The position numbers and the translations under genes are program-made. This document shows, piece after piece, positions 16,535 through 22,316 of a DNA stretch of 64,000 nt. Below the pieces are notes generated by a model, which made no database searches, was not told where the DNA came from, and worked only from the letters and a program-made list of their open reading frames with translations. Source of the stretch: Micropruina glycogenica (lineage in GTDB: Bacteria; Actinomycetota; Actinomycetes; Propionibacteriales; Propionibacteriaceae); the NCBI RefSeq assembly GCF_900289045.1, contig NZ_LT985188.1, positions 682,001 to 746,000 of the forward strand, written 5' to 3'. How positions within the stretch are numbered: position 1 is the stretch's first letter; the number at the start of each line of letters is the position of its first letter.

Positions 16535-17161
16535 TCAGGAGCCGATGATGCGGCGGGCCGAGGTGAAGTGGCCGTACCCGCTGATGGTGTCGACCTCGAG
16601 GTCGTCGCGGGTGTTGCGGGCGTGCACGAACTTGCCGTCGCCGATGTACATGCCGACGTGGTGCACGGGGGAGTAGAAGAACAACAGGTCGCCGGGCTTG
16701 AGGTTCTTGATCGAGACCGCCTTGCCCAGCCGCGACTGAGCACTCGACGAGTGCGGCAACGAGATGCCGATCTGGCGGTAGGCGTACATCATCAGGCCGG
16801 AGCAGTCGAAGCTGTTGCCGCCCGAGGCCCCCCACACGTACTGACCGGTCGAGACGCGTGAAAGGGCGGCCGCGACGACCTTCTTCGCGCGTTGGTCGGT
16901 GAGCGACACCGTCTTGCTCTTGGCGTACTCGAAGCGGGGCGTCCGATTCAGTGTCGCGTTGACCCGCGCCACTGCCAGGGAGGTGTCGAGCAACGACTTC
17001 TGGTGGGCCGCAGCCAGCGTTTCGGTGACCGTCGGTGCGGCAGCAACCGCCGGCGTGGATGTGCGTGCGGCGCCCGACGACTCGGCACCGGGCACGACCG
17101 ACAGCAGCAGGCCACTGGTGGCGACGAGAGCAGCGAACAGGGCGAGGCGACGCACACGCAT
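16535..17161 (-). CDS. secreted NlpC/P60 peptidoglycan hydrolase
   Basis: A 208-residue protein with a signal peptide (residues 1-30, LALFAALVATSGLLLSVVPG) and a linker up to about residue 90. The NlpC/P60 domain follows: catalytic Cys in NSFDCSGLMMYAY, His in VHHVGMYIGDG, then KFVHARN. Such enzymes cut D-Glu-mesoDAP type bonds in peptidoglycan stems during growth and division. GAAGGAAG precedes the ATG. It is a paralogue of the next gene on the same strand and both share 11-bp CTGAGA repeats upstream. Confidence 0.92.
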   Translation of the reverse strand: MRVRRLALFAALVATSGLLLSVVPGAESSGAARTSTPAVAAAPTVTETLAAAHQKSLLDTSLAVARVNATLNRTPRFEYAKSKTVSLTDQRAKKVVAAALSRVSTGQYVWGASGGNSFDCSGLMMYAYRQIGISLPHSSSAQSRLGKAVSIKNLKPGDLLFFYSPVHHVGMYIGDGKFVHARNTRDDLEVDTISGYGHFTSARRIIGS

Positions 17162-17346: not shown

Positions 17347-17961
17347 TCACCACTTGATGATGCGGCGGGCCGAGTTGTAGTGGCCGTACTTCTTCAGGCT
17401 GCTGACGTCGAGGTCGGCGCGCGGGTTGCGGGCGTGCACGATCTTGCCGTTGCCGATGTAGATCGCCACGTGGTGCACCGGGGTGTAGAAGAACACCAGG
17501 TCGCCGACTTTGAGGTTCTTCTTGCTGACCTTCTTGCCGCGGTGCGACAAGGTGCGCGACGAGTGCGGCAGCTTCATGCCGATCTTGCGGTAGGCGTAGA
17601 GCACCAGGCCCGAGCAGTCGAACGAGTTGGGGCCCGAGCGTCCACGCACGTACTGACCCTTCTTCACCTTGGCCAACGCTGCGCGGACGACCTTCATCGC
17701 CTTGGCGCGGGCCTTCTGCGCCTTCGTCGTCTTCTTCGGCGGAACGGTGGCGGGCGCGGTCTCGGTGGGTGTCGGCGCCGGGGTCTCGGTCGCGATGGGG
17801 TCGGGCGTGGGGGCGACCGTGGTGGGCGTGGGGCTCGGCTCGGTGACGGCCGGCGGCGTCACTTCGTCGGCCACCGCGGGCACCGCAACCGGCGCCAACG
17901 AGAACACGAGCGAGGCGCTGACGGCCAGCGCAGTGGACAGTGCGGTCTTACGAGCGAGCAT
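17347..17961 (-). CDS. secreted NlpC/P60 peptidoglycan hydrolase
   Basis: A 204-residue protein from ATG 17961, with GGGAGG about nine bases upstream. A signal peptide (STALAVSASLVFSLAPVAVPAVA) leads to a Pro/Thr-rich linker (about residues 32-75), a Lys-rich stretch and the NlpC/P60 domain with Cys in NSFDCSGLVLYAY, His in VHHVAIYIGNG and KIVHARN. It is close in sequence to the neighbour at 16535-17161; the pair arose by duplication. A perfect-looking terminator hairpin separates them, so each has its own promoter, both with 11-bp CTGAGA repeats. Confidence 0.92.
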   Translation of the reverse strand: MLARKTALSTALAVSASLVFSLAPVAVPAVADEVTPPAVTEPSPTPTTVAPTPDPIATETPAPTPTETAPATVPPKKTTKAQKARAKAMKVVRAALAKVKKGQYVRGRSGPNSFDCSGLVLYAYRKIGMKLPHSSRTLSHRGKKVSKKNLKVGDLVFFYTPVHHVAIYIGNGKIVHARNPRADLDVSSLKKYGHYNSARRIIKW

Positions 17962-17999
17962 CGGTGGTCCTCCCGGGTCATCCAGGGCCACCCATGTCA

Positions 18000-18038
18000 C
18001 TGAGAGACGGTTGAGCGCACCCTGAGATCAAGCTGAGA
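18000..18038 (-). promoter_or_regulatory. 11-bp periodic direct repeats upstream of the second NlpC/P60 gene
   Basis: On the + strand CTGAGA (18000), TTGAGC (18011), CTGAGA (18022) and CTGAGA (18033) are spaced at exactly 11 bases, mirroring the array at 17214-17252. The rest of the 334-base gap (17962-18295) holds a GGTCGAGCCTGTCGAGACC-type repeat near 18117 and the array at 18146-18280. Confidence 0.6.
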
Positions 18039-18295: not shown

Positions 18296-21160
18296 TCAGG
18301 CGGGCACCACGTTGACCAGCTTCGGAGCCCGCACGATCACCGTTCGGACCCCGTTCGGGGTCTCGTCGACGATCCGGGGCAGCGCCAGGGCCTGCTCGCG
18401 CAGCGCGTCCTCGGTGATGTCGGCGGGAACCTCCAACCGGGCCCGCACCTTGCCCTTGACCTGCACCACGCAGGTGACCGTGTCCTCGACCAGCAGGGAC
18501 GCCTCGGCGACCGGGAACCCCTCGAACGCCAGCGAGTGCTCATGGCCCAGCCGCGACCACAACTCCTCGGCGATGTGCGGGGTCAGCGGGGCCACCATCA
18601 GCAGCATCGGTTCGATCGCCTCCCGCGGCACCGAGCTCAGCTTGGTCAGTGCGTTGTTGTACTCGGTCAGCCGGGCGATCGCGGTGTTGAACGACAGAGC
18701 GTCATAGTCGCGCCGAACCGCGTCGATGGTCTTGTGCAGGGCGCGTTCGGTCGCGGCGTCCATCGGGGCGTCCACCACCCGCACCTCGCCGGTGGCCTCG
18801 TCGATCACGTTGCGCCACAGCCGCTGCAGGAACCGCTGCGAGCCCACCACGGCCCGGGTCTCCCACGGCTTCGACTGGTCCAGCGGACCCATGCCCATCT
18901 CGTAGATCCGGAACGTGTCGGCGCCGTAGGAGTCGTACATGTCGTCGGGTGTGACGATGTTCTTCAGCGACTTGCCCATCTTTCCGTACTCCCGAGCGAC
19001 CTCCTCGCCCTGCCAGAAGTAGTGCAGCTCGCCGTCGGCGCCGGCGGTCTCGACGACCTCCTCGGCCGGGACGGTCTGGCCGCGTGCATCGCGGTAGGCG
19101 TAGGCCTGGATGTAGCCCTGGTTGTACAGCCGCCGGAACGGCTCGGCCGACGAAACCTGGCCCAGGTCGAACAGCACCTTGTGCCAGAACCGCGCGTACA
19201 GCAGGTGCAGCACGGCATGCTCCACACCGCCGACGTACAGGTCGACGCCGCCGGTGTCGGCCAGATCCGCGCCGCCGGTGTCGACGTCGTCCCGCGGCCC
19301 CATCCAGTACCGCTCGACCTCACGGTCGACGAAACGGTCAGGGTTGGCCGGGTCCAGGTAGCGCATCTCGTACCAGCACGACCCCGCCCACTGCGGCATC
19401 ACGTTCAGCTCGCGGTGGTACGTCTTCTCGCCGTCACCCAGGTTCAGCGTGACGGTGGCCCAATCGGTGGCCCGGGCCAACGGCGGCACCGGCTCCGACG
19501 TCGAGTCGTCGGGGTCCAACGCCTGCGGGCTGTAGTCGTCCACGTCGGGCAACTCGACCGGCAGCATCGACTCGGGCAGCGCGATCGGGTAGCCGCCCTC
19601 GTCGTAGACGATCGGGAACGGCTCGCCCCAATAGCGCTGCCTGCTGAACAGCCAGTCGCGCAGCTTGTAGGTGACGGTTTCGACGCCCAGGCCTTTGGCG
19701 GTCAACCACCCGATCATCGCCTTTTTGGCCTCGGCCATACCCAGGCCGTTCAGCGAGATCGCGTCGTTGGCCGAGTTGATCGTGGGCCCGTCGCCGGTGA
19801 ACGCGCTGTCGGGGTCGTGACCCTCGGACGGCTGCACGGTGCGAATGATCGGCAGGTCGTAGGCCTTGGCGAAATCCCAGTCGCGCTCGTCCTCGGCGGG
19901 CACCGCCATGATGGCGCCCGTGCCGTACCCCAGCAGCACGTAGTCGGCGATGAAGATCGGCAGCTTGGCCCCGTTGACCGGGTTGATCGCGAAGGCGCCG
20001 GTGAACACGCCCGACTTGTCCTTGTTCTCCTGCCGCTCCAGGTCGGTCTTGCGGGCTGCGGCCTCGCGGTAGGCCGTCACCGCCTGGGAGGGGGACGGAC
20101 CCCCGCCCGTCCAGGCGTCTTTGGTGCCGGTCGGCCACGAATTCTCGCCGGGGGTGATGGCGTCGACGATCGGGTGTTCGGGGGCCAGCACCATGAACGT
20201 GGCGCCGAACAGGGTGTCGGGTCGGGTGGTGAACACCTCGATGGCGGCCTCGTGGCCCTCCACCGTGAAGGTGACGGACGCGCCGGTCGAGCGGCCGATC
20301 CAGTTGCGCTGCATGGCCTTGACCTTGTCGGGCCAGTCCAGCCGGTCCAGGTCGGCCAGCAGCCGGTCGGAGTAGGCGGTGATGCGCATCATCCACTGCT
20401 TCATGTTGCGCTTGAACACCGGGAAGTTGCCGATGTCGGAGCGGCCCTCGGCGGTGACCTCTTCGTTGGCCAGCACGGTGCCCAAACCGGGGCACCAGTT
20501 CACCGGCGCCTGCGAGATGTAGGCCAGCCGAAAGGCGTCCACGACGGCGGCTTGTTCGGCAGCGGTCAGCTCGGCCCACGGACGCTCGGCCGGCACCGGA
20601 CGGGCCCCGCTGGCGAACTCGTCGATCAGTTCGCTGATCGGCCGGGCCTTGTCGGCGTCGTGGTCGTACCAGGAGTTGAAGACCTGCAGAAAGATCCACT
20701 GCGTCCACTTGTAGAACTCGACGTCGGTGGTGGCGACGCTGCGCCGGTCGTCGTGGGCCAGGCCCAGCCGGCGCAACTGGCGGCGCATGTTGGCGACGTT
20801 CGCCTCGCTGGTCACCCGGGGGTGCTGCCCGGTCTGCACCGCGTACTGCTCGGCGGGCAGGCCGAACGCGTCATAACCCAGGGCGTGCAGCACGTTGCGG
20901 CCCAGCATGCGCTGAAAGCGGGCGTAGGTGTCGGTGCCGATGTAGCCCAGCGGGTGGCCGACGTGCAGCCCCGCGCCGCTGGGGTAGGGAAACATGTCCA
21001 GCACGAACAGCTTGTCGCGGCCGGCCACCTGGTCGGGCTCGGCCCACACCCCGGCGGGGTTGGGCGCGTGAAAGGTGCCCTCGGCCTCCCAACGGTCCTG
21101 CCAGGCGGTTTCGATCTGCCCGGCCAACTCGGCGGTGTAGCGGTACGGCGTCTCGCTCAT
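18296..21160 (-). CDS. leuS: leucyl-tRNA synthetase
   Basis: A 954-residue class I aminoacyl-tRNA synthetase that charges tRNA-Leu. The HIGH motif is HVGH in [16 protein letters not shown] and the KMSKS loop is KMGKS in [10 protein letters not shown]. The editing domain is present ([18 protein letters not shown]). ATG 21160 is chosen because GAAGGA lies upstream and MSETPYRY is typical; an in-frame upstream TTG would start inside a terminator. Upstream lie a Leu-rich leader ORF and a terminator, so expression is probably tuned to charged tRNA-Leu. Confidence 0.97.
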
Positions 21161-21193
21161 CTCATCCTTCGATCGTCTCTGCTTGTGGACATG

Positions 21194-21219
21194 AAAAAGC
21201 CCCTCGCGCAAGGAGGGGC
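21194..21219 (-). terminator. attenuator terminator in the leuS leader
   Basis: On the minus strand GCCCCTC - 7-base loop - GAGGGGC is followed directly by TTTTT. It is a canonical Rho-independent terminator lying 33 bases before the leuS start codon and 19 bases after the leader-peptide stop. A terminator inside a 5' leader points to conditional readthrough. Confidence 0.85.
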
Positions 21220-21238
21220 GCCGCGGTGACGGTGGGTG

Positions 21239-21274
21239 TCAGCGCGGCTGTCGAAGCAGAAGTCGGAATGCCAC
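21239..21274 (-). CDS. leuS leader peptide MAFRLLLRQPR
   Basis: An 11-codon ORF starts at GTG 21274 and ends with TGA. It contains three consecutive leucine codons (CTT CTG CTT). The upstream in-frame codons are CCC and TGA, so GTG is the only possible start. A -10 box TAGGCT lies six bases before GTG, so the leader peptide would be translated from a leaderless mRNA. The bases GCCGCG at its 3' end are complementary to CGCGGC just before the terminator stem, giving possible alternative pairings. Slow leucine decoding would stall the ribosome here and release leuS from termination. Regulation is inferred from layout. Confidence 0.7.
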   Translation of the reverse strand: MAFRLLLRQPR

Positions 21275-21280
21275 GGGGTC

Positions 21281-21286
21281 AGCCTA
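21281..21286 (-). promoter_or_regulatory. -10 box of the leuS leader transcript
   Basis: TAGGCT on the minus strand is followed by GACCCC and the GTG of the leader peptide. No good -35 is visible. The rest of the gap to 21463 holds only scattered repeat cores (a CTCGACCGGCAAGTAGTCGAG palindrome around 21347 and GGGACGGTTCTGG near 21408). Confidence 0.5.
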
Positions 21287-21463
21287 CCGCAGCCTGAGCG
21301 GCACCCGTTTCGTTCGCTGAACCTCTTGCTTCTCGCCCACCTGCTCGACCGGCAAGTAGTCGAGCGAGCGGATAGGGCGGGCGGGTCGTCGGGGGCGTTC
21401 AGCGGCAGGGACGGTTCTGGCCGGCCTCAGCGTGGCCGGGCGATTTTCGTCGGTCGCAGCGAT

Positions 21464-21469
21464 TAGCCT
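21464..21469 (+). promoter_or_regulatory. -10 box of a leaderless DUF3097 transcript
   Basis: TAGCCT is followed by seven bases and ATG 21477, with no ribosome binding site. Confidence 0.45.
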
Positions 21470-21476
21470 TCTGGCA

Positions 21477-22316
21477 ATGAGCCGCTACCCGAAAGACGTG
21501 CTGGCGCCGGGCTGGCAGAAAGCCGGTAAGCCGACCACCACTGAGTTGCCGGCCGAGTTCGGCATGGTGCTCGAAGACCCGACGTCGGGCTTCGTCGGGG
21601 CCCTGGTGCGGGTCGAGAACGGTCTGCTGGTGCTCGAAGACCGGCGTGGCAAGCGGCGCAGCTTTCCGCTCGGCCCCGGGTTCTGGCTCGACGGACGCCC
21701 CGTGGCGATCACCGCGCCCAAACGCGCCGCGAACGGCGGGCCGACACACACCGCGTCCGGTTCGCGGGCGACCAGGACCACCGCCAAGGTGGCGCTGCCC
21801 TCGCGCATCTACGTCGAAGGTCGGCACGACGCCGAACTGGTCGAAAAGGTGTGGGGCGACGACCTGCGGCACGTCGGGGTGGTGGTCGAGTACCTCGGCG
21901 GCATCGACGACCTGCCCGCGATCGTCACCGAGTTCGCCCCGCAGCAGGGCCGCCGCCTGGGGGTGCTCGTCGACCATCTGGTGCCCGGCAGCAAGGAGTC
22001 GCGCATCGTGCAGCAGGTCACCAGCCCCTGGGTGATGGTCACCGGGCACCGCTTCATCGACATCTGGACGGCCGTCAAGCCGTCCGTGGTCGGGCTGAAG
22101 CAGTGGCCCGAGATTCCCAAAGGGCAGGACTACAAGACCGGCATCTGCCGGGCGTTGGGCTGGCCGGCGCGCACCCAGGCCGACATCGCCAACGCCTGGC
22201 GGCGCATTCGCAGCCAGGTGACCAGCTGGCGCGACCTCGACCCGGCCCTGATGACCGAAGTCGAGAAGCTGATCGACTTCGTGACCGCCGACCACGCCGA
22301 CACCCTGGAGCCCTGA
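21477..22316 (+). CDS. DUF3097 family protein
   Basis: A 279-residue protein recognised as DUF3097, a family confined largely to actinobacteria. The N-terminus is MSRYPKDVLAPGW. The central region RIYVEGRHDAELVEKVWGDD with LGVLVDHLVPGSKE resembles a Toprim-like core: E in VEG and the DH pair are the likely acidic/metal positions. This would suit nucleic acid processing, but no function has been shown. It shares a one-base stop/start overlap with the phosphatase that follows. In related genomes DUF3097 genes often lie near hemW and hrcA, as here. Confidence 0.88.
   Translation: MSRYPKDVLAPGWQKAGKPTTTELPAEFGMVLEDPTSGFVGALVRVENGLLVLEDRRGKRRSFPLGPGFWLDGRPVAITAPKRAANGGPTHTASGSRATRTTAKVALPSRIYVEGRHDAELVEKVWGDDLRHVGVVVEYLGGIDDLPAIVTEFAPQQGRRLGVLVDHLVPGSKESRIVQQVTSPWVMVTGHRFIDIWTAVKPSVVGLKQWPEIPKGQDYKTGICRALGWPARTQADIANAWRRIRSQVTSWRDLDPALMTEVEKLIDFVTADHADTLEP

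Follow-up and report, generated by a model that had tools for sequence, protein, structure and literature searches.

The window, meaning the whole 64-kb stretch of DNA analysed here, comes from a Micropruina genome of 3.84 Mb on a single contig. Its minus strand carries leuS, whose product matches NCBIfam TIGR00396 over the cut-off (E 6.6e-259) and has its closest relatives in Micropruina, with identities of 94, 90 and 87 % in a comparison of the 298 N-terminal residues. In front of the gene lie, in this order, the hexamer TAGGCT, 6 nt, an 11-codon leader ORF, a helix (H1), an intrinsic terminator and 33 nt. A preliminary description had named TAGGCT, the short ORF with its Leu run, the terminator and leuS 33 nt further on, and the sequence has every one of these parts in its place.

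Features of the leuS leader region in the window, in the order of transcription
Feature	Position	Strand	Basis and remarks
-10 like hexamer TAGGCT	21281..21286	(-)	sequence; 6 nt before the leader GTG, with the transcription start inferred here
Leader ORF GTG...TGA, MAFRLLLRQPR followed by stop	21239..21274	(-)	sequence; 11 sense codons
Helix H1, 5' strand GCCGCG-C-TGAC	21238..21248	(-)	fold, with spacing and covariation in relatives; stop codon inside
Helix H1, 3' strand GTCA-C-CGCGGC	21220..21230	(-)	fold; adjoins the terminator directly
Intrinsic terminator GCCCCTC, loop, GAGGGGC, TTTTT	21194..21219	(-)	terminator scan; conserved in relatives
Spacer before leuS, Shine-Dalgarno-like GAAGGA at 21170-21165	21161..21193	(-)	sequence
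leuS, leucine--tRNA ligase, long type, 954 aa	18296..21160	(-)	translation; NCBIfam TIGR00396

The leader reads GTG GCA TTC CGA CTT CTG CTT CGA CAG CCG CGC TGA (21274-21239), with the Leu run CTT CTG CTT at 21262-21254. Counted from the first base of the last Leu codon, H1 begins 8 nt downstream. In the fold, GCCGCG (21248-21243) pairs with CGCGGC (21225-21220), and past one mismatch TGAC and GTCA continue the helix inward. The terminator follows as GCCCCTC-CTTGCGC-GAGGGGC (21219-21199) and TTTTT (21198-21194). Two overlapping calls of the terminator scan describe this same single hairpin, against 0.3 calls expected in shuffles. The leuS ATG at 21160 stands 33 nt past the T-run. A sigma-70 consensus scan of the region called no promoter, so the -10 rests on its match to TANNNT and on the conserved place of that motif. 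The Rfam scan of the window at gathering thresholds gave 0 matches, T-box included, in agreement with the earlier claim that leuS is controlled here without a T-box. The locus does not belong with the LEU element of leuA either, as the gene downstream is leuS.

Some further observations were made around the element. About 78 bp just 5' of the leader promoter (window 21310-21387) have a copy of 76 % identity in the same genome (G000:C1:1238933-1239011). The neighbouring minus-strand ORFs at 16535-17161 and 17347-18000 resemble, by eye, tandem NlpC/P60-type secreted proteins, and their C-terminal halves look alike. Also by eye, AGCAGA in the leuS 5' UTR (21191-21160) could pair with the leader Leu codons TCTGCT in Micropruina, and locus L014 shows a matching change.

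Occurrence of the leader before leuS

Within the genus, the leader was found in 6/6 searchable genomes, with peptides of the form V[AT][FRQ]RLLLRQPR. We then scanned for the whole layout, defined as TANNNT, 6-7 nt, an ORF with a Leu run, a helix at +7 to +9 and a terminator. It was present in 34 of the 80 leuS upstream regions of the nearest relatives in a species-level genome collection, and none of the control stretches contained it (0/80 reverse complements, 0/2284 other stretches of the same loci and 0/800 mononucleotide shuffles, or 0/3164 when the three kinds are pooled). In the 64-kb window the scan returned the leader place only.

A covariance model (R1) extending from the start codon to the T-run, with the promoter left out, matched 37/198 genomes of the family (9/29 genera) and 152/393 genomes of the class sample (52/123 genera). 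The 161/198 family genomes and 241/393 class-sample genomes with no R1 match may lack the element or carry a diverged one, and we count them against the attenuator reading. LeuS is encoded downstream in 132/139 of the fetched loci, a set which overlaps with the first collection (the window's own element is among the 139 as L104, and several Micropruina loci are in both). The remaining loci are L138, whose contig stops short, and six that precede another gene, cimA. The strict layout scan was passed by 120 of the 132 loci with LeuS. Relatives that keep the terminator also keep the Leu run, and this conservation of both supports the earlier proposal of a ribosome-mediated attenuator with Leu codons before leuS.

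The loci were parsed in 128/132 cases (L164, L210, L217 and L220 were left out). TANNNT stands 6 nt (99 loci) or 7 nt (28 loci) before the leader start in 127 of the 128 parsed loci; the parse required the motif at 4-9 nt and favoured spacings near 6, and the layout scan serves as the control for the whole layout. This spacing predicts a transcription start on the first base of the ORF or right beside it. The suggestion that the Micropruina leader may be leaderless agrees with the start predicted at its GTG from the -10, with the place of TANNNT at 6-7 nt in 127/132 loci and with the S. lividans homologue, which its annotators call leaderless (PMC8079986). Such a leader before leuS had been taken to be unusual. 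In our set it is the rule, and the S. lividans report has already put one in print (PMC8079986).

The leader precedes two types of LeuS, a long type as in the window and a short type that is about 37 % identical to it. Two genomes have leuS of both types, and each copy is preceded by a Leu leader of its own (G103 with L111 and L168, G385 with L139 and L169), as if leader and gene travelled together or the leader had been kept through gene replacement. No such leader was seen before leuS of M. gordonae (L044).

Sensor codon, helix H1 and the moving stop codon

The last Leu codon of the run is CTT in 115/128 and CTC in 13/128 parsed loci. CTT is otherwise rare: in the LeuS segments of these loci it accounts for 21/2429 Leu codons, and in leuS of the window for 0/75. 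A rare CUU would fit a slow and therefore sensitive sensor codon.

We searched each parsed locus for the best perfect helix with its 5' strand between -30 and +40 nt around the last Leu codon and its 3' strand allowed up to and into the terminator; 2/128 had no such helix. The helix starts 7-9 nt past the first base of this Leu codon in 111/126 loci and ends 0-1 nt before the terminator in 100/126, with an overlap in 8/126. The spread was calculated for 118 of the 126 loci, picked for a helix 5-12 nt past the Leu codon, which bounds the Leu-to-helix spread only. The standard deviation was 0.9 nt for the Leu-to-helix distance and 1.6 nt for the helix-to-terminator gap, and it was 10.6 for the helix loop, 9.6 for the stop-to-terminator distance and 33 for the terminator-to-leuS distance. 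In the per-position table of 111 loci the pairing is partly built in, as these were chosen for helices at +7 to +9.

H1 is real. In alignment A3, made from 18 sequences without reference to structure, one core pair is split evenly between C-G (9) and U-A (9). The swap changes the last residue of the peptide between Arg and Cys, so the pairing is kept despite an amino-acid change. Three of five covariation measures in A3 exceeded all 500 shuffles. Pairs changed on both sides and further pair types were not above shuffles in A3, and this we count against the attenuator reading. One pair is broken in 7/18 of these sequences, the same that is unpaired in the window as the mismatch inside H1. When 101 matches were aligned to the model (A5), both-side changes were seen in 11/16 pairs. 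They amount to 139 cells against 24 in shuffles (0/500 as high), a count that includes two short reverse-strand matches and comes from an alignment fitted to the structure and so leaning towards it; sliding the partners abolishes the signal.

The stop codon of the leader takes two main positions. In 72/128 loci, the window included, the ORF crosses the 5' strand of the helix and stops at +15, and in 41/128 it stops at +6, just ahead of the helix (for example MRRPLLLT); the other 15/128 differ. On a tree of 82 short-type LeuS built with FastTree, parsimony requires a minimum of 10 changes between forms; in this tree L169 is a long-type fragment labelled short, and other long branches are flagged. 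Despite the moving stop codon, the distance of H1 from the Leu codon is constant. This would be expected if the RNA reads the place of the ribosome at the Leu codon and not at the stop. Longer ORFs that read past the helix were seen in L171, L172, L208, L211, L219, L227, L231, L235 and L236, with peptides such as MRAANLLLTGPRRAS and VRAGLLLIGPHRSKRH, and they add to the positions that the stop can take.

An isoleucine-coded sister element before cimA

The six R1 matches without LeuS precede cimA, the gene for citramalate synthase. The downstream ORF was read as cimA for L173, L175, L228 and L233, and for L229 and L232 the placing rests on near-identical leaders; the protein downstream of L175 matches TIGR00977 over the cut-off (E 4e-154). 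These leaders, such as MFYGLLIIGRRAG or MPSSLIIIARRAG, have Ile codons (ATT/ATC) in the place of the sensor. A model built from the six loci (R2) matched 195/393 class genomes at E 1e-4, partly at leuS leaders. From the listed places we hand-picked 40 loci for diversity (L272-L311), and cimA lies downstream in 39/40, L296 being the exception.

A run of Ile codons is present in 42/46 loci (the 40 and the six), and the 4/46 without a run of two were left out of the scoring, which used, irrespective of frame, the longest run of Ile codons close to the start of the model. Counted from the first base of the last Ile codon, the helix begins 8 or 9 nt further on in 29/42 loci, and its end lies 0-1 nt short of the terminator in 36/42. 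The last Ile codon is ATT in 28/42, against 11/478 Ile codons of the cimA ORFs. Since the -10 of these leaders is less clear, we claim leaderlessness for the leuS leaders and not for those of cimA. The genome of the window has no cimA-type match; R2 finds the leuS element only, and weakly. No published account of a cimA attenuator was found among the literature matches listed. A sister element with Ile codons and a similar geometry supports the reading of the leuS element as an attenuator.

Models of leuS control and known attenuators

The leuS element is most likely a leucine-sensing, ribosome-mediated transcription attenuator. The same design before leuS in many actinobacteria makes a switch set by starved ribosomes very probable, and the arrangement of its RNA parts hints at an unusual mechanism. 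This reading is built on what the sequences show: the parts exist and are conserved, H1 covaries, the spacings are fixed, the last Leu codon is a rare one, and no antiterminator that overlaps the terminator was found. From these we infer the start of the transcript in this genome, the response to leucine and the action of H1 and a halted ribosome on the terminator. If regulation is denied altogether, an ordinary terminator follows a chance ORF, and indeed regulation cannot be shown from the window by itself. Against this stand conservation, covariation and spacing across many genera and a layout that occurs in none of the control stretches. Moreover, the neighbouring upstream ORF (21432-22316, plus strand) points away, which leaves no evident gene upstream whose transcription the hairpin would end. 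We regard a chance arrangement as extremely improbable.

The preliminary description had also drawn attention to GCCGCG and CGCGGC. Their pairing is real and covaries in relatives, but a role as antiterminator of the trp type did not hold, since the helix abuts the terminator without overlapping it and the two do not compete by pairing. We tested for other pairings that would share a terminator arm. The 5' arm pairs with the leader at -5.9 kcal/mol, against -8.3 kcal/mol for shuffled leaders, and was stronger than the shuffled mean in 13/128 loci. The 5' arm with the loop was stronger in 11/128 and the 3' arm in 32/128, and the pairing of H1 was stronger than shuffled in 124/127. By eye, some Micromonospora would allow an antiterminator in which the 3' strand of H1 pairs with the arm and loop of the terminator; across the parsed loci this pairing was weaker than shuffled (stronger in 18/128), and it was rejected.

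The leader ORF does contain codons of the regulated amino acid, as trp-type attenuators do, and no antiterminator sharing a terminator arm was found by helix overlap, folding or arm complementarity. For this reason the leuS leader is not to be filed as trp-type. It could still be a classical case in which an arm-sharing antiterminator forms when the ribosome halts and was missed by our tests, with H1 as a pause or 1:2 hairpin. Antiterminator and terminator hairpins are described for leuS of Streptomyces by Seliverstov et al. (PMC1262725), and the ilvB-II motif of Corynebacterium is drawn with an antiterminator that takes the terminator shoulder (PMC10272879). Shuffled leaders are more complementary to the terminator arms here than the real leader is, and the best helix seldom overlaps the terminator, which makes a classical arrangement improbable. 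The trp model also does not explain a layout in which two spacings are fixed and the surrounding parts vary.

When the window was folded with the ribosome masked, the probability of the terminator was 1.00 at every position tried and H1 coexisted with it. Thermodynamic switching was therefore rejected, the terminator having this probability in every state tried. The coexistence means that pairing alone does not switch, and it counts against the attenuator reading. With the last Leu codon in the A-site, H1 had a probability of 0.83 when 6 nt were masked and 0.01 when 10 nt were masked. It reached 1.00 with a halt at the first Leu codon and was gone with the ribosome at the stop. Docking of the ribosome through H1 would thus depend on how far its footprint really reaches, or on its halting at a Leu codon earlier in the run.

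We propose that transcription would start at the leader GTG and a ribosome would load on the bare 5' end. With ample Leu-tRNA, it would cross the Leu codons and melt H1, or finish translation and leave; the terminator would then fold and RNA polymerase would stop before leuS. With Leu-tRNA in short supply, the ribosome would halt at the Leu run, chiefly at the rare last CUU. H1 would fold 5-6 nt beyond the halted codon and place the ribosome at the base of the terminator. The hairpin would then fail to form at the polymerase, and leuS would be transcribed. Helices 5-9 nt past the A-site codon have the usual spacing of frameshift stimulators. H1 could plausibly rest against a ribosome that has halted on the last Leu codon, and a ribosome 1-2 codons further would begin to melt it. 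Since the base of H1 joins its two ends, the halted ribosome would adjoin the 5' arm of the terminator as polymerase makes it. Through the helix, probably either the halted ribosome or H1 itself comes up against the terminator. In vitro, intrinsic termination is reduced by a trailing ribosome, and in pyrBI the terminator is kept from folding by a ribosome close to it (PMC10135430). These precedents lead us to favour docking of the halted ribosome through H1, a step whose chance we put a little short of even.

Its main rival is H1 alone. As long as the Leu codons hold the ribosome, H1 would stay folded and, from its place at the base of the terminator, would itself keep the hairpin from closing in the polymerase exit channel. 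The ribosome would only decide on the melting of H1, and an untranslated leader would mean read-through, so that this is a version of the attenuator with a different last step. It would account for a helix that ends 0-1 nt before the terminator in 100/126 loci and that, in the fold, is free with the ribosome at the first Leu codon and gone with the ribosome at the stop. However, both hairpins stand side by side in the fold without conflict, and the block of an intrinsic terminator by an abutting helix is an assumption; we consider this version unlikely. H1 could also act in the opposite sense. As it adjoins the terminator and is compatible with it, it might stack on the terminator and strengthen it, and brisk translation of the leader would melt H1 and raise leuS, which would then track translation capacity and not leucine shortage. 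Such a function leaves the rare last Leu codon, the fixed Leu-to-helix distance and the Ile codons before cimA unexplained and is quite improbable. A further point counts against an attenuator: for the ilvB leader of S. coelicolor, Seliverstov et al. note that replacing codons was without effect (PMC1262725).

Returning to docking, we tentatively suggest that actinobacteria may have a distinct layout with no competing antiterminator. A ribosome-gated helix 5-6 nt past a rare, U-ending hungry codon and abutting the terminator would loop out the RNA and present the halted ribosome to the polymerase, and the ribosome would block folding. The layout would have been reused with Leu (CUU) before two deeply different leuS types and with Ile (AUU) before cimA. 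If a halted ribosome does block termination in this way, the element would be a simple switch for high-GC bacteria that can be programmed through its codons, and it would lend itself naturally to tests of how ribosome and polymerase are coupled in actinobacteria.

The leuS leader quite probably works like other ribosome-mediated attenuators. In ilvB-II of Corynebacterium (PMC10272879) and ilvB1 of M. tuberculosis (PMC13236596), too, hungry codons of the leader decide on an intrinsic terminator. Unlike here, where no such pairing was found, the antiterminator of trp-type and ilvB attenuators excludes the terminator, in ilvB-II by taking its shoulder (PMC10272879). E. coli pyrBI resembles the docking reading in that the close ribosome itself prevents terminator folding, but pyrBI senses UTP through polymerase pausing (PMC10135430), whereas here the halt at Leu codons and the helix would bring the ribosome close. 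The leaderless poly-cysteine ORFs of mycobacteria (Canestrari et al. 2020) are likewise rich in the sensed amino acid, but are cited as translation attenuation of cysteine genes (PMC13236596).

The Micropruina locus is one more of the known leuS leaders and is not unprecedented. Attenuators of leuS were predicted in S. avermitilis and S. coelicolor by Seliverstov et al. in 2005 (PMC1262725), and the 2021 re-annotation of S. lividans TK24 reports a leaderless leuS leader, LeuL2, with the peptide MRAVRLLLSEPR, a hairpin and a U-run (PMC8079986). Beyond these two, we recognised no further published account of leuS leaders among the matches listed. The Streptomyces predictions share with our locus a leader ORF, a terminator and a further hairpin before leuS. 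They are limited to some Streptomyces spp. in that account and are called classical, with an antiterminator, so that they are set apart by description and not by pairing (PMC1262725). New here are the rare CTT as last Leu codon, the covarying helix with its fixed spacings, the absence of a visible trp-type antiterminator, the mobile stop and the cimA sister. Like LeuL2, itself leaderless, the Micropruina leader is a short ORF with three Leu codons before leuS, followed by a hairpin and a U-run (PMC8079986). The window has two marks of that type, a Leu-run ORF upstream of leuS and an intrinsic terminator between them. LeuL2 belongs to another genus, and its published description gives no codon, spacing or covariation analysis and, as mechanism, only attenuation in general (PMC8079986). 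Its peptide, MRAVRLLLSEPR, recurs letter for letter in our class sample, for example in L142 and L143.
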